Shown one piece after another: positions 10,047 to 18,504 of a DNA stretch of 64,000 bases. A model generated the notes under the pieces. That model made no database searches, was not told where the DNA came from, and worked only from the letters and a program-made list of their open reading frames with translations. Location of the stretch: the NCBI RefSeq assembly GCF_000411255.1, contig NZ_KE150413.1, positions 1,280,999 through 1,344,998 of the forward strand. The letters run 5' to 3'. Position 1 is the first letter of the stretch; the number at the start of each line of letters is the position of its first letter. Made by a program: the position numbers and the translations under genes. This DNA is from Paenibacillus sp. HGH0039. Lineage in GTDB: Bacteria; Bacillota; Bacilli; Paenibacillales; NBRC-103111.

Positions 10047-10913
10047 ATGACACCTACACGATTAAGCGCTATTGCGGCCATTCTGCTCGCTGTCACGTTG
10101 ACGGCTGCCGGATGCGGAAGCCCAGGCAAAGGAGAGGTTACCGCTTCGGAGAAAACCGGCAGTACGCCGGGAGCGTCCAAAGAACCCGCCAAAGAGGTGA
10201 AACTTACCGTAGGAGCAGCGGCCGTTCCGCATGCGGAGATCCTGGAAGTCGTAAAACCGAAATTGAAAGAACAGGGAATCAACCTGGACATTAAAGTGTT
10301 CGATGACGAAGGCCAGTTGAATCCGGCTTTGAAAGACAAACAGATCGACGCGAACTATTTTCAGCACGTGCCGTACCTGGATTCGGTCAAAAAAGAGAAA
10401 AGCTTTGACTTTGCGGTGACTGCCAAGGTTCATGTGGAACCCATCGGATTTTATTCGAGCAAGCTGAAATCCAAGGACGAGATCAAAGACGGCGCGAAGA
10501 TCGGTATTCCGAACAATCCCTCCAACGAATACCGGGCGCTGGTCCTCCTGCAGCAGCAGGGTCTTATCAAGCTGAAAGAGGGGCTAACCACCTACGAGGC
10601 TACGCCGAAGGATATCGCGGATAATCCGAAAAACCTGAAGTTTTTCGAAACGGACTCCGCCACTCTGCCGAGGGCGCTGCCGGATTTGGATGGTGCGATT
10701 ATTAATACGAATCTCGTCCTGGAAGCCAAGCTTGATCCCAAATCGGCCTTATTCCGGGAGGATGCCAACTCTCCTTACGCAAATGTGATCGTAGTCCGCA
10801 AAGGCGATGAGAGCCGGGACGAAATCAAAAAACTCGATGCGGCGCTTACCGGCCCGGAAGTGAAGAAATTTATCCAGGACAAATACGGCGTTGCCGTTGT
10901 CCCGGCTTTTTGA
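10047..10913 (+). CDS. metQ: MetQ/NlpA-family substrate-binding lipoprotein
   Basis: A 288-residue extracellular binding protein. The N terminus is a lipoprotein signal peptide ending in the lipobox LTAAGC (Cys ~24), followed by a Ser/Thr/Lys linker. Family motifs include KLTVGAAAVPHAEIL, DANYFQHVPYLD and IGIPNNPSNEYRALVLLQ. It captures methionine-like ligands for MetNI. The ATG at 10047 follows AAAGAAGG; the longer frame upstream is another gene's shadow. It lies 59 bp after metI and is followed by a terminator, so it closes the operon. Confidence 0.9.
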   Translation: MTPTRLSAIAAILLAVTLTAAGCGSPGKGEVTASEKTGSTPGASKEPAKEVKLTVGAAAVPHAEILEVVKPKLKEQGINLDIKVFDDEGQLNPALKDKQIDANYFQHVPYLDSVKKEKSFDFAVTAKVHVEPIGFYSSKLKSKDEIKDGAKIGIPNNPSNEYRALVLLQQQGLIKLKEGLTTYEATPKDIADNPKNLKFFETDSATLPRALPDLDGAIINTNLVLEAKLDPKSALFREDANSPYANVIVVRKGDESRDEIKKLDAALTGPEVKKFIQDKYGVAVVPAF

Positions 10914-10945
10914 ACAAAGCTAAGTCTCCAATCGTATGTCCGAAT

Positions 10946-10985
10946 AAAAGACGCACAGACCGAATTCCGGGCTGGGGCGTCTTTG
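10946..10985 (+). terminator. Rho-independent terminator after metQ
   Basis: AAAGACGC (10947-10954) pairs with GCGTCTTT (10977-10984) across a 22-base loop, 33 bp after the metQ stop. Confidence 0.65.
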
Positions 10986-11050
10986 TGTCTATTAACTCGG
11001 TTTTTAAGGCGGATATTTCAAAAACGAGATAAGAGTACACCAATGACCAT

Positions 11051-11077
11051 ACCAATCTGCAAGTTAGCTCATATGTA
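11051..11077 (+). promoter_or_regulatory. Candidate late mother-cell (sigma-K-like) promoter
   Basis: ACC at 11051-11053 and CATATGTA at 11070-11077 are 16 bp apart, agreeing with the sigma-K pattern (AC near -35, CATANNNTA at -10). It lies just upstream of the pentapeptide-repeat gene. No sigma-A promoter of comparable quality was seen there. Late mother-cell expression would fit a spore-coat gene. Confidence 0.4.
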
Positions 11078-11109
11078 TATACTATCTTGATAGCTGGAGG
11101 GTAGTTCAA

Positions 11110-11682
11110 ATGAGCGAGTATCCCGATTTATTTGAAAGTTGGTGGGCAAAGGATGAACGAGCTCAGTCGGTTGAAGGTTTAAAAGAATCTCCCGGTTTTC
11201 AGGGGGATCGTTTGGACTGGCGTACAGCAGGGAATCCGACAAGGGACAACCGGACAAGGGGAAGCCGTTCCGCAGATCACCGGACTTCGGGTAACCGCAC
11301 AGGCGGCAGTCGTACCTTAGGCCATCGTACAGCAGGTGGCCGGAGCGATGGAAACGGAAACGAAGGAAACCGCACGCGGGGTAACCGGACGGAGGGGCGG
11401 AGAGACCATTACGGCGGGCAGTACCCGCAAAACCTTCCCGGAGGAATCTGGTCGAATCCCTGGAACGCGCCTGCGGATCGACCGGAGGGGGAATTCGCGA
11501 GGGAAGATCGTACCGGGGACAGGCATACCGGAGGCAGTCGTACCGAAGGCAGCCGTACAAGAGGAAACCGAACCGAAGGGGGCCGTGCGGGAGGAAACCG
11601 TACGTCTGGCCGCCGGACGCACGGGCTCCCCGCACGCCTGACCGCTCCCGTATTCAAAGCGAAACCGACCAGAAAACGTTAG
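11110..11682 (+). CDS. Arg/Thr/Gly pentapeptide-repeat protein, probable spore-coat substrate of CotH
   Basis: A 190-residue, strongly basic, low-complexity protein. Residues 37-96 are twelve consecutive pentads and residues 133-172 eight more, built on (N/S/H/D)-R-(T/S)-x-G, for example NRTRG, SRTEG and HRTAG. A central non-repeat section (97-132) is Pro/Trp/Tyr containing, and the C terminus (KAKPTRKR) is basic. No signal peptide or catalytic motif is present. The ATG follows GGAGGGTAG. The next gene is a CotH kinase. In B. subtilis cotH lies beside cotG, whose basic Ser-rich repeats are CotH substrates; here Thr/Ser in the pentads would play that part. The coat role is inferred from composition and neighbour. 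No similarity to CotG's actual repeat was seen. Confidence 0.7.
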   Translation: MSEYPDLFESWWAKDERAQSVEGLKESPGFQGDRLDWRTAGNPTRDNRTRGSRSADHRTSGNRTGGSRTLGHRTAGGRSDGNGNEGNRTRGNRTEGRRDHYGGQYPQNLPGGIWSNPWNAPADRPEGEFAREDRTGDRHTGGSRTEGSRTRGNRTEGGRAGGNRTSGRRTHGLPARLTAPVFKAKPTRKR

Positions 11683-11746
11683 GTTGAACTTTGTCGGTCC
11701 GCATTGTGCCGCGGCGCCTGCATTTCGCATAAGGTAACGTAACAAG

Positions 11747-11778
11747 AACAGCCTATCTTGACGGATAGGCTGTTTTCT
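11747..11778 (+). terminator. Terminator between the repeat gene and cotH
   Basis: AACAGCCTATC (11747-11757) is the exact reverse complement of GATAGGCTGTT (11764-11774), loop TTGACG, followed by TTCTT. It separates the repeat gene from cotH, so cotH is expressed by read-through or from its own nearby promoter. Confidence 0.8.
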
Positions 11779-11802
11779 TATAGCGAAAGGCGGAGGAATC
11801 TG

Positions 11803-12858
11803 ATGTCGCTTCCTCATTTTCAACTAGCAGTCGGCACCGGTGGGGACCGCAAACTGCGGCAAGACGTATGGAGCAGCCGCTTCGTACCGGCGATTTTATC
11901 GGACGGGAGCAGCAGCGTGCCTATCCGGATCGGATATCGGGGCGGGCATACCCGCGAATATGCGAAAAAATCGTATGAAATCCGGATGAAGGGAAGGACC
12001 TATCATCTGAATGCCGAATACGACGATCCTTCGCTGATCCGCAACGCGCTGTCGTTCCGGTTTTTCCGGATGATCGGCGTGCCGAGTCCGCATACCCGCC
12101 ATGTCGTACTGACGATCGACGGCAGAAACGAAGGCGTATATGTGCTGATCGAGGCGGTTAAGCGGTCTTTTTTCCGGCGGAGGGGGATTCTTATGAAGTC
12201 TCTCCTGTATGCAAGCAACGACCGTGCGAATTTTTCACTGAAAGATCCGGATACCGGCAAGCGAAAAAAGACCTTGTTTGCCGGATACGATCTTATTATC
12301 GGAACGGGTCAGGACCGGGACAAGATGAAAGCGTTCATCCAATCCATGCATGCGCTTAAAGGAGACCGGCTGAAGGCTTTTCTGGGTAAGCACGTGGATC
12401 TCGACAATTATTTGCGGTGGCTGGCCGGGGCCGTGATGACGGGGAATTATGACGGTTTCGAGCATAACTATGCGATTTACGAGCATAAACCGACCCGGAG
12501 GTACCGGATGATTCCGTGGGATTATGAAGGCACTTGGGGGCGGAATTGTTACGGGAAAAGAGTAAACAGCAATCTCGTGAGGATCACCGGGTATAACGAC
12601 TTGACCGAAAAAGTGCTGGAAAGCAAGGAGGCGCGGCAGCGGTACAAGGCTCTTTTGAAACATCTTACGGACACTGCGTTTACGAAGGACCGGATTATGC
12701 CCGTCGTGCATGAGATGCACGAACGCATTGCCCGGGATGTAGATAAGGACCCCGGCCGTCAAAAAAGTCTGTCCCTGTTCCGGTCGGAGCCTGAAGTGAT
12801 CGAGCAGTATATCGAGGACCGGCGGAAAGACATCCAAGAAGGAATCCGGCTGTTATAA
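11803..12858 (+). CDS. cotH: CotH-family spore-coat protein kinase
   Basis: A 351-residue CotH-type atypical kinase. YAKKSYEIRMKG near residue 50 holds the ATP-binding Lys, GNYDGFEHNYAIYEHK near 210 the Asn/His segment, and IPWDYEGTWGRN near 235 the metal-binding Asp. CotH phosphorylates Ser/Thr in repetitive spore-coat proteins. The ATG at 11803 follows CGGAGG with 6-base spacing; a more upstream TTG at 11758 lies in the loop of the terminator and is rejected. It is preceded by the Arg-Thr repeat protein and runs convergently to the LacI gene with only 14 bp between stops. Length is close to B. subtilis CotH. Confidence 0.88.
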   Translation: MSLPHFQLAVGTGGDRKLRQDVWSSRFVPAILSDGSSSVPIRIGYRGGHTREYAKKSYEIRMKGRTYHLNAEYDDPSLIRNALSFRFFRMIGVPSPHTRHVVLTIDGRNEGVYVLIEAVKRSFFRRRGILMKSLLYASNDRANFSLKDPDTGKRKKTLFAGYDLIIGTGQDRDKMKAFIQSMHALKGDRLKAFLGKHVDLDNYLRWLAGAVMTGNYDGFEHNYAIYEHKPTRRYRMIPWDYEGTWGRNCYGKRVNSNLVRITGYNDLTEKVLESKEARQRYKALLKHLTDTAFTKDRIMPVVHEMHERIARDVDKDPGRQKSLSLFRSEPEVIEQYIEDRRKDIQEGIRLL

Positions 12859-14505: not shown

Positions 14506-16296
14506 ATGAACAACCGTGAACACAGATGGAACCGGCCTTTTCCGAAAATCGGCATCCGTCCGACCATCGACGGACGCCGCAAAGGGGTGCGCGAATCGCT
14601 TGAAGAACAGACGATGAACATGGCGAAGGCGGCTGCCGCCCTGCTCAGCGGCAATTTGCGCTACCCCGACGGAACGCCGGTGGAGTGCGTCATTGCCGAC
14701 ACCTGTATCGGCGGCGTAGCGGAAGCGGCTGCGGCTGCGGACAAATTCGCCCGGTCGGGCGTGGGCGTATCCGTCACCGTGACTCCTTGCTGGTGCTACG
14801 GAACCGAGACGATGGATATGAACGCCTCCATTCCGAATTCCATTTGGGGCTTTAACGGGACGGAACGTCCGGGCGCCGTTTACTTGGCCGCCGTGCTTTC
14901 GGCCCATGCGCAGAAAGGAATTCCGGCGTTCGGTATCTACGGCAAGGATGTGCAGGACGCGGGCACGGCCGACATTCCCGAAGACGTGCGGGAGAAGCTG
15001 CTCCGTTTTGCAAGGGCGGCTCTGGCCGTGGCGGTGATGAAAGGAACGTCCTACTTATCGGTCGGCTCCGTTTCCATGGGGATTGCGGGTTCGATCGTCA
15101 GCGAGGAGCTGTTCCAGAATTACCTCGGCATGCGCAATGAATACGTGGATATGTCGGAGCTGGTCCGCCGGATGGAAGAAGAGATATACGACAAGGAGGA
15201 GTTCGGGCTTGCTCTCGCCTGGGTGAAGGACAACTGCAAGGAGGGCCCCGACAACAATTCTGCGGTCATTCAAACGTCCCGGGAACGTAAAGATAAAGAT
15301 TGGGAAACCGTCGTCAAAATGTCCCTGATCGTCCGCGACCTGATGACCGGGAATCCGAAGCTGGCTGAACTCGGTTTCGGCGAGGAAGCGCTGGGGCATA
15401 ACGCGATTTTGTCCGGCTTCCAGGGGCAGCGCCACTGGACGGATCACTTCCCGAACGGGGACTTCATGGAAGCGATCCTGAACAGCTCCTTCGACTGGAA
15501 CGGAAGAAGAGGGCCTTATCTCGTGGCGACCGAGAACGACAGTTTGAACGGCGTTGCGATGCTGATGGGGTACCTTCTGACGCACACCGCCCAAATTTTC
15601 GCCGATGTCCGCACGTACTGGAGTCCCGAATCGGTGAAGCGGGTAACGGGTTATACGCTGGAAGGAGCCGCGGAGCACGGGATTCTCCATCTCATCAATT
15701 CCGGCTCGGCTGCACTGGACGGTACGGGGCAGCAGTCCCGGGACGGCGCGCCCGCCATGAAGCCTTATTGGGAGATTACGGAGGAAGAGGTGGACAAATG
15801 CCTCAGCGAAACGTCCTGGCGGCCCGCGGCCGTGGAGTATTTCCGGGGCGGCGGCTACTCGTCGGATTTCCTGACGAAAGGCGGGATGCCCGTCACGATG
15901 ACCCGGATCAACTTGGTGAAGGGCCTCGGTCCGGTGCTTCAGCTTGCCGAGGGCTATACGGTCGATCTGCCGGATAACGTGCACGACGCGCTGGATAAGC
16001 GGACCGACCCCACGTGGCCGACGACCTGGTTCGCGCCGATCCTGACAGGAGAAGGCTCTTTCCGCGATGTCTATTCGGTGATGGACACCTGGGGCTCCAA
16101 TCACGGTTCCATCAGCTACGGACACATCGGGGCCGATCTCATTACCTTGGCGGCGATGCTGAGAATTCCCGTTTCCATGCACAATGTCGATGAGAAGAAT
16201 CTATTCCGGCCGCGCGTATGGAGTTCTTTCGGGACCCGGGATGAAGAAGCGGCGGACTTCCGCGCGTGCGCAAACTTCGGCCCTTTGTATAAATAA
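14506..16296 (+). CDS. fucI: L-fucose isomerase
   Basis: A 596-residue isomerase, the usual length for Fuc[21 protein letters not shown] near the N terminus and [11 protein letters not shown] near residue 95 are characteristic. [18 protein letters not shown] near 345 and [20 protein letters not shown] near 525 contain the metal/active-site Glu, Asp and His. It converts L-fucose to L-fuculose (also D-arabinose to D-ribulose) with Mn2+. The ATG follows GAGGAGG. It lies 64 bp after fucU, with an operator-like palindrome between them. Confidence 0.95.
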
Positions 16297-16322
16297 AAGC
16301 CGTACAGGGAGGGGGACTTTTC

Positions 16323-17849
16323 ATGGGAGTAGAGAAGAACGGCCTTCACATGCTTGCCGTGGACTTCGGAGCGAGCAGCGGGCGGACGGTGCTCGGCACT
16401 TACAACGGATCACGTCTGGCCGTTGAGGAAATCCACCGCTTCTCCAATGATCCCGTCAGACTAGGCGGCAATCTTCACTGGGATTTTCTGCGGCTGTTTC
16501 ACGAGATGCTCCAGGGCATCCGGGCCTATAAGTCGTTTACGGCGGAGGCCCCCGCTTCGCTTGCCGTAGACACGTGGGGCGTGGATTACGGACTTGTGGA
16601 CGGCAGGGGCAGGCTGCTCGGGAACCCTTACCACTACCGGGATTCACGGAACGAGCCCGCGATGCGGCGGGTGTTGAACCGGATACCGGAAGAAGAATTG
16701 TACCGGCGCACAGGCATCCAGACCCAGTCCATCAACACGCTGTTTCAGCTTGAAGCGGAAGGGGAGGCGGCCTCCCTGGCCGGTGGGGATGTGCGGATGC
16801 TGTTTATGCCCGATTTGTTCCGCTACTATCTATGCGGAGACATTTCGGCCGAATACACCATCGCCAGCACGTCCGGCCTGCTCCACCCGCAGCTGCGCGG
16901 CTGGGATGAAGAAGTGCTTGCCCTGCTTCCGCATCCGCGGGCGATGTTTCCTTCCATCGTGATGCCGGGAACCGCAGCAGGCAGTCTGCGCGCCGCATTG
17001 GCCGAGGAGCTGCAGATGAGCAGCTTCCCGGTCGTGGCGGCAGCTTCCCATGACACGGCCTCGGCCGTAGTGTCCATCCCCGCGCAAGCCGGCGGCAGCT
17101 ATGCGTTTATCAGCTGCGGCACCTGGTCGCTGATGGGGGTGGAGACGGAGCGGCCCGTCATCACCGAACAGAGCCGGATTCTCGCCTTCACGAATGAAGG
17201 CGGAGCGGACGGCCGCATCCGGCTGCAGAAGAACATCATGGGCCTGTGGCTTTTGCAGGAATGCCGCCGGTATTGGGAGCTGGAAGGCGAAGCGCTCACC
17301 TTCGGGGACATGCAGGCGATGGCGGCGGCAGAAGAAGCGGCTGCTTCCTACGTCGATCCGGAAGACCCCGTGTTCCTGGCGCCGGGGAACATGCCGCAGC
17401 GCATCCGCAGCTGGTGCGGTCAGACCGGTCAGCCCGTTCCGCAGACGAAGGCGCAGATGATTCGCTGCATCGTGGAAAGCCTGGCGATGAAATTCAGCCA
17501 GACCCTCCACGAAATCGAGGAGCTGCTGGGCCGGAGGCTGGACGCCGTCCATATGGTCGGCGGAGGCATCCGCAACCGGCTGCTCTGCCAGCTGACGGCG
17601 AACATCACCGGCCGGTGCGTCATCGCGGGGCCGGTCGAGGCGACCGCCGTCGGCAGCTTGCTTATGCAGGCGAAGGCTCGCGGCGAGCTTCATACCCGGG
17701 ACGAAATGCGGCAGGTCGTGCTGGCCTCGTTCCCGCCGGATGTGTACTCTCCCGAGGATACCGGCCGGTGGCGGGAAGCTTATGCGCGTTACAGGAAGAT
17801 CAACGCAAACGCCCACCATTCCGAAAGGAGCGTCAACGGAAATGACTGA
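16323..17849 (+). CDS. FGGY-family kinase (rhamnulokinase-like; probable L-fuculokinase)
   Basis: A 508-residue FGGY sugar kinase. LAVDFGASSGRTVLGTY near residue 10 is the phosphate-1 loop, AVDTWGVDYGLVD near 80 the sugar-binding region, and HMVGGGIRNRLLCQLTANITG near 408 the adenosine motif. Overall it resembles RhaB rhamnulokinase more than E. coli FucK. In this operon the expected reaction is phosphorylation of L-fuculose at C1, so a RhaB-type enzyme probably serves as fuculokinase. The start follows AGGGAGGGGG. It overlaps the aldolase start by 8 bp. Confidence 0.85.
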   Translation: MGVEKNGLHMLAVDFGASSGRTVLGTYNGSRLAVEEIHRFSNDPVRLGGNLHWDFLRLFHEMLQGIRAYKSFTAEAPASLAVDTWGVDYGLVDGRGRLLGNPYHYRDSRNEPAMRRVLNRIPEEELYRRTGIQTQSINTLFQLEAEGEAASLAGGDVRMLFMPDLFRYYLCGDISAEYTIASTSGLLHPQLRGWDEEVLALLPHPRAMFPSIVMPGTAAGSLRAALAEELQMSSFPVVAAASHDTASAVVSIPAQAGGSYAFISCGTWSLMGVETERPVITEQSRILAFTNEGGADGRIRLQKNIMGLWLLQECRRYWELEGEALTFGDMQAMAAAEEAAASYVDPEDPVFLAPGNMPQRIRSWCGQTGQPVPQTKAQMIRCIVESLAMKFSQTLHEIEELLGRRLDAVHMVGGGIRNRLLCQLTANITGRCVIAGPVEATAVGSLLMQAKARGELHTRDEMRQVVLASFPPDVYSPEDTGRWREAYARYRKINANAHHSERSVNGND

Positions 17850-18504
17850 ACGGAAAATAAGAGAAGAATTGACGAAATACGCCGCCAAAAGCGTGGCGAA
17901 AGGTCTGGTAGTCGGCCCCGGAGGCAATATCAGCGCAAGATCCGAAGAGTTTATGTACCTGTCGCCCAGCGGATTTGCGCTGGAAGATATCGAGCCGCAT
18001 CAGTGGGTGCCGGTCCACATTCCTACCGGTGAAATCGGGGATACCGCCTTCCGGCCTTCATCCGAAGTGCTGATGCATCTGTTCTGCTACCGGGTGAACC
18101 CTCTGCTACAGGCAATCGTGCACACGCATCCCGCCTACTGCATTGCCTTGACGCTCGTGGACGACGAGCTGCCCATGCTTTTTCCGGATCAGGCGGCTCT
18201 CGTAGGGGATGTCGCGTTTATCCCTTATGTCGTGCCGACGACGGACAAACTCGCTCATCTAGTGGCGGAGAAGGCGGACCGTTACAGCTCCATGCTGCTT
18301 AAAAATCACGGTCTGGTGACTACGGGCAAAAACCTCCGGGAAGCGTATTACCGGACCGAAGTGATGGAAGAGAGCGCGAAAATTTATATGATCGCCAAAT
18401 CGGTCGGGGAGCCCAGAAGGCTGACGGAAGAGGAATACAAAGAGATTCAGGGGCTGGAGAGCGAAGCTTACCGGGTTCAACTGCTTCAAAATATGAAGGA
18501 GTAG
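17842..18504 (+). CDS. fucA: Class II aldolase, L-fuculose-1-phosphate aldolase
   Basis: A 220-residue class II aldolase. GPGGNISARS near residue 28 binds phosphate, SSEVLMH near 75 contains the catalytic Glu, and VHTHPAYC near 95 plus LLKNHGLV near 155 supply the zinc-binding His. It cleaves L-fuculose 1-phosphate to dihydroxyacetone phosphate and L-lactaldehyde. The ATG at 17842 overlaps the end of the kinase gene and follows AAAGGAG. With fucU, fucI and the kinase it completes the pathway; no fucose transporter or lactaldehyde dehydrogenase is in the window. Confidence 0.9.
   Translation: MTERKIREELTKYAAKSVAKGLVVGPGGNISARSEEFMYLSPSGFALEDIEPHQWVPVHIPTGEIGDTAFRPSSEVLMHLFCYRVNPLLQAIVHTHPAYCIALTLVDDELPMLFPDQAALVGDVAFIPYVVPTTDKLAHLVAEKADRYSSMLLKNHGLVTTGKNLREAYYRTEVMEESAKIYMIAKSVGEPRRLTEEEYKEIQGLESEAYRVQLLQNMKE

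Follow-up and report, generated by a model that had tools for sequence, protein, structure and literature searches.

What is the basic repeat protein encoded beside the spore-coat kinase gene cotH in Paenibacillus sp. HGH0039, and does it represent a new kind of kinase substrate? The locus lies in a stretch of 64,000 nucleotides, here called the window, whose positions are used throughout (Table 1). An earlier note on this DNA had described 12 and 8 pentads in perfect register within a 190-residue protein and proposed a new, independently evolved coat substrate. We propose instead that the protein is best read, from its sequence and setting, as a CotG-like modular coat protein and not as a new substrate class. 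Taken as a whole, the explanation that we consider likely is that the protein would be made late in sporulation, in the mother cell, together with CotH, which would phosphorylate many of the Thr and Ser residues that come after Arg in the pentads; with phosphate countering the positive charge of arrays that are probably disordered, the protein would then take its place in the outer coat, serving there as a charged spacer or scaffold. It is the analogy with Bacillus subtilis that suggests expression in the mother cell, phosphorylation, disorder, a location in the coat and neutralization of charge, and comparative evidence supports a putative role of the repeat protein as a partner of CotH.

Table 1. 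Features of the repeat gene and cotH region, in window positions
Feature	Position	Strand	Basis or details
Possible sigma-K-type promoter of repeat gene, weak	11050..11078	+	TACC, 16 nt, CATATGTAT
CotG-like repeat protein gene	11110..11682	+	ORF, GGAGGG ribosome site, pentad excess over shuffles
First pentad array	11218..11397	+	residues 37-96, 12 slots, 9 strict
Central non-repeat section	11398..11505	+	residues about 97-132
Second pentad array	11506..11625	+	residues 133-172, 8 slots, 5 strict
Likely sporulation promoter of cotH	11706..11736	+	GTGCC, 17 nt, CATAAGGTA
Intergenic hairpin	11745..11776	+	14-pair stem, AACAGCCTATC...GATAGGCTGTT, right after cotH promoter
cotH, spore-coat kinase	11803..12858	+	351 aa; catalytic aspartates D217, D240

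The 190-residue product has a pI of 11.3 and a net charge (K+R minus D+E) of 14, and contains 32 Arg, 32 Gly, 18 Thr and no Cys; from this composition, intrinsic disorder of the arrays is to be expected. Its 14 strict x-R-[TS]-x-G pentads, in which Thr outnumbers Ser, are split over two arrays, with nine at residues 37-96 and five, in a second register, at residues 143-172. Shuffling the residues 20,000 times gave at most six strict pentads overall and four in a single register. The 12 plus 8 pentads described previously hold as five-residue slots, but only 14 are strict, the other six of the 20 slots being degenerate (NPTRD, SRSAD, NGNEG, DRTGD, RHTGG and GRAGG); likewise, the register is perfect inside each array, but the two arrays do not share one. 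Searches of Pfam and NCBIfam returned no match for the repeat protein. A Pfam match of the homologue in the congener L033 to the Pcf11 repeat was judged to be a low-complexity artefact.

Tandem repeats rich in G+C can generate open frames of no significance, and other frames of this repeat are also open. One antisense frame spans the gene both in the window and in Paenibacillus chitinolyticus (L031), so openness alone is no guide to strand, and an indel of five codons (15 bases) inside an array, which distinguishes these two sequences, keeps every frame. A spurious reading of the repeat is nevertheless scarcely credible to us. The sense frame is favoured by its ribosome site, by an N-terminus (M..[YF]PDLFE.WW) that the window shares with four congeners, including two with CotH proteins only 66-67% identical to its own, and by similar sense-strand repeat proteins in many other species. 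Between the window and P. chitinolyticus, whose repeat proteins are 84% identical over 190 aligned codons, Ka/Ks in the sense frame is 0.53, which also argues against a spurious frame; the value for cotH is 0.145. Both genes, for the repeat protein and for CotH, are genuine. Within the pentads, changes between these two species affect 4 of 36 R/T positions and 9 of 36 variable positions, a difference that is not significant (P 0.22) and counts against the CotG-like reading; with the Gly positions added, 4 of 54 are changed (P 0.03).

The assignment of the neighbouring gene to the CotH kinases is well founded. Its product matches PF08757 with an E value of 8.7e-72 (242.8 bits, against a curated cut-off of 23.8), as the only such match in the genome, and aligns with the structure of Bacillus cereus CotH (5jd9) at E 1.7e-80. 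The kinase active site is intact: D217 and D240 line up with Asp in 5jd9, are invariant in all 50 aligned CotH proteins, and are separated by 23 residues, exactly as are D228 and D251 of B. subtilis CotH, mutants of which are termed catalytically inactive in PMC7821199. Translation probably starts at the ATG at 11803; an alternative upstream TTG, at 11758, falls within the intergenic hairpin. Residue 221, beside the catalytic loop, is His in the window, its four congeners and L064, and Gln in the other 44 of the 50 proteins. We considered whether this residue might set a preference for Thr and decided against it, given that loci of Cohnella whose repeats are rich in Thr (L060, L062, L074 and L076) have Gln, that L064, with His, has no repeat gene by our criterion, and that B. 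cereus CotH carries His at the equivalent position.

Each gene appears to have its own promoter, and the sequences in front of both resemble what we take to be the sigma-K consensus. The promoter of the repeat gene is partly conserved in an alignment of the window with four congeners. For cotH, the -10 element of the window, CATAAGGTA at 11728-11736, belongs to a recurrent motif: CATANNNT[AG] lies in the 130 nt preceding cotH in 30 of 49 regions, a set that counts the window but not L072, whereas resampling with the dinucleotide composition preserved predicts 2.3. A few of the matches probably lie inside coding sequence, as in L044 and L053, 27 nt before the assumed cotH start. Hairpins recur as well. 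By eye, those of the same sequence type precede cotH in 23 of the 34 Paenibacillus loci, and hairpins of at least eight pairs lie within 120 nt of cotH in 32 of 49 loci versus 9.4 expected. The window's hairpin could be either the terminator of the repeat gene or the 5' end of the cotH message. It is absent from the output of a sigma-70 and terminator scan that returned nothing relevant, and an Rfam search of 10850-12000 gave three matches, all under their family thresholds. The sporulation genes for CotE and SpoIVA are found in the same genome.

The earlier note had suggested a survey of cotH neighbours in Paenibacillaceae, and this shows the pairing to be largely conserved. Our first sample comprised 49 cotH loci from one scan, 34 from Paenibacillus and 15 from Cohnella. 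A repeat gene was scored as an ORF on the cotH strand, ending no more than 900 nt upstream of cotH, with a periodicity z of 4 or more, K+R minus D+E of 6 or more, six or more [RK][ST] pairs and a pair density of 0.05 or more, overlapping ORFs being reduced to the best; this criterion was chosen once these 49 loci had been inspected a first time. By this measure, 29 of the 49 have a basic [RK][ST] repeat ORF upstream of cotH. Across the 528,508 bases, the other places scoring were 12 CotB genes and four elsewhere, one of which, in L065, resembles a CotG-like gene moved from its usual place. The remaining 20 of 49 loci have no repeat gene by the criterion, which counts against the CotG-like reading, and eight of these also lack any CotB match in the sequence analysed; one of the eight, L072, has a single base upstream and cannot be judged, but was kept in the denominator of 49. 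A second sample, overlapping the first, comprised the window locus and 29 others scored by the same criterion within 1100 nt. Here the repeat gene lies upstream of 9 of 16 short CotH genes (open frames under 470 aa; the window is one of the nine) and of none of 14 long ones (Fisher P 0.0009). The seven short CotH genes without a repeat gene again count against the CotG-like reading. The repeat units vary by species among R-T, K-S, K-T and R-S, with best periods of 4 to 25 residues and GGRT tetrads in some Cohnella, but Arg or Lys followed by Ser or Thr recurs across species. With this natural range of units, a set of substrates is already at hand for probing the preference of CotH kinases for Ser or Thr. 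A cysteine stands within the last two residues of 10 of the 29 CotG-like proteins (in L032, L037, L045, L046, L050 and L053, for example), and five of the 29 (L031, L047, L057, L074 and L076), as well as the window protein, are free of cysteine.

These data bear on whether the repeat protein depends on CotH at all. It could be a coat spacer that assembles independently of the kinase, adjacency reflecting shared sporulation expression; the apparently separate promoters and the hairpin between the two genes would fit such a view, as would a hybrid B. subtilis CotG with less basic repeats that assembles without CotH according to PMC9765600, the window protein being only moderately basic at a net charge of 14. 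We regard this as unlikely, given the presence of the repeat gene beside short CotH genes and its absence beside long ones, and the recurrence of Ser or Thr right after Arg or Lys while other positions vary between species.

Returning to the CotG-like reading, the protein shares with CotG and its relatives a position beside cotH, tandem basic repeats with regularly placed Ser or Thr, non-repeat ends and a high pI. It differs from B. subtilis CotG in its unit, a pentad of Arg-Thr and Gly in place of repeats of 6-7 residues, and in having two arrays around a non-repeat centre, an orientation co-directional with cotH and no cysteine. BLASTP against one Bacillus-type CotG, that of L153, gave an E value of 21, and the protein is therefore no CotG in the strict sense of a sequence orthologue, as far as this one comparison goes; the lack of sequence similarity to CotG counts against the CotG-like reading. 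That architecture matches while sequence differs is as had been anticipated. In PMC9765600, however, the CotG-like kind is defined by position beside cotH, repeats and a usually positive charge, with homology not required, and its members are said to share chromosomal organization, modular structure and repeats with B. subtilis CotG while presumably deriving from different ancestral minigenes. The window protein lies beside cotH and has tandem repeats between non-repeat ends and a net positive charge. In the published account of CotG, CotH-dependent phosphorylation offsets charge, and CotG without phosphate aggregates. PMC7821199 further places CotG-like proteins in nearly all CotH-bearing spore formers, and states that phosphosites of CotB and CotG are known and that CotG promotes the phosphorylation of CotB. 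ExsB of the B. cereus group, likened here by its description in that text, is likewise a repeat protein ranked as CotG-like, with repeats phosphorylated on Thr, but differs in attaching the exosporium.

Against this background, it is very improbable that the protein arose anew, in full independence, as a CotH substrate beyond the CotG-like kind. The undetectable similarity to the Bacillus-type CotG compared and the preponderance of Thr over Ser would speak for it, but the place, architecture and companion gene in relatives are those of the described CotG-like family, whose description needs no homology (PMC9765600), units in relatives span Thr to Ser, and Thr phosphorylation of ExsB is already reported (PMC7821199). 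Independent evolution, as the earlier note had it, is thus not far from how the entire family is already described in print, with its shared organization and presumably different ancestral minigenes, but independence in the sense of a substrate kind of its own does not survive the comparison. Our search of titles, abstract openings and part of PMC3533761 found no paper on this cluster in Paenibacillus; Saggese 2016 and Nguyen 2016 may cover some of the species.

CotB completes the module in many relatives. Opposite in strand to cotH and 0.2-1.6 kb upstream of it, the CotB profile matches strongly (E 4e-48 or better) in 27 of the 49 loci, 10 of which had supplied rows of the profile (A1), and in 18 of these 27 the repeat gene lies between cotB and cotH. 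Counting any match down to E 1e-3, including paralogues elsewhere in the sequence around each locus, 34 of the 49 loci have one, and 41 carry at least one of the two, repeat gene or CotB match. The profile also finds, at E 1.5e-57, a gene beside CotH and a KKSRSHKKS-repeat protein, which we take to be a Bacillus-type CotG; from this match in a genome with that third cluster gene, we conclude that the profile describes CotB. NCBIfam and plasmid records gave no help in naming the CotB-profile genes. Among eight Bacilli regions around CotB matches, CotH was found in two (L152 and L153, where the repeat gene is divergent from cotH) and not in the other six, which counts against the CotG-like reading and suggests that CotB and CotH are often unlinked outside the Paenibacillaceae set. 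Whereas cotB is co-directional with cotH and cotG divergent in B. subtilis (PMC4130616), cotB is divergent in Paenibacillaceae, followed by the cotG-like gene and cotH on one strand, an order that appears to be new. The window's gene order, too, differs from that of B. subtilis, and this counts against the CotG-like reading. Collectively, the loci show that Paenibacillus and Cohnella have a CotB/CotG/CotH module whose genes follow their own order.

Paenibacillaceae CotB, an NRGGPDS domain followed by a tail, itself resembles the window protein in part, with similar pentads in the tail in several species, but its conserved N-terminal domain is missing from the window protein. In L036, L038, L048, L051 and L055, where the criterion finds no separate repeat gene, the CotB tail carries pentads instead, of the forms GNQT, GNKT and GNRT (GNRTG/GNQTK), as if pentads had moved between partners.

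The window has lost cotB, and so its cluster is not a complete cotB-cotG-cotH cluster. At an E value of 0.001, the CotB profile has no match in this genome (99.93% complete), and none was found in that of P. chitinolyticus (98% complete); cotB stands beside cotH in three of the five genus genomes, those of L032, L033 and L034. In L032, which shares 92% CotH identity with the window, ABC permease and nlpA are followed by about 2 kb holding cotB and a second gene that matches the CotB profile, and then by the repeat gene, cotH and lacI. The window and L031 have the repeat gene directly after nlpA, with synteny kept, so that 10913-11110 of the window faces 2306-4315 of L032, with both CotB-profile genes. 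Since the more distant L033 and L034 (CotH 66-67% identical) still have cotB, its loss is most simply derived. This clean loss in the lineage of the window and P. chitinolyticus, seen by comparing genomes, is apparently new, and it is the part of our results most worth following.

Of the CotH substrates known in B. subtilis, CotB is the most heavily phosphorylated. Given its absence from the window's genome, the 190-residue protein is the only cluster-encoded candidate substrate of CotH. We entertain, as a tentative and rather doubtful extension, that the module of the P. chitinolyticus lineage was cut to two parts by the clean deletion of cotB, leaving a two-array, Thr-based protein as the only cluster substrate of CotH, doing both jobs; the central section and second array would then perhaps have taken over the role of CotB. 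The repeat proteins of both cotB-less genomes lack cysteine, as do four of the other 28, but cotB was lost in a single evolutionary event, which is no proof of a connection with the missing cysteine. A genome with cotH and a cotG-like gene but no cotB is a natural experiment on what CotG-like proteins do: they may themselves be a structural end product of CotH, or may serve mainly to help CotB become phosphorylated, and such a genome allows a direct test.

Two further observations concern neighbouring and related loci. On a 149-kb plasmid of Alicyclobacillus dauci (L123, NZ_CP104065.1, 8293-17333), an ORF with GGNRHSSGGGRS repeats is divergent from cotH, the CDS annotated over the repeat uses another frame, and three CotB-profile genes annotated as hypothetical follow cotH, amounting to a plasmid-borne coat-phosphorylation module. 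Downstream of cotH in the window, 14506-18504 appears by eye to hold a fucose/rhamnose catabolic operon (isomerase, kinase and aldolase) behind a LacI regulator, the regulator alone having been checked.
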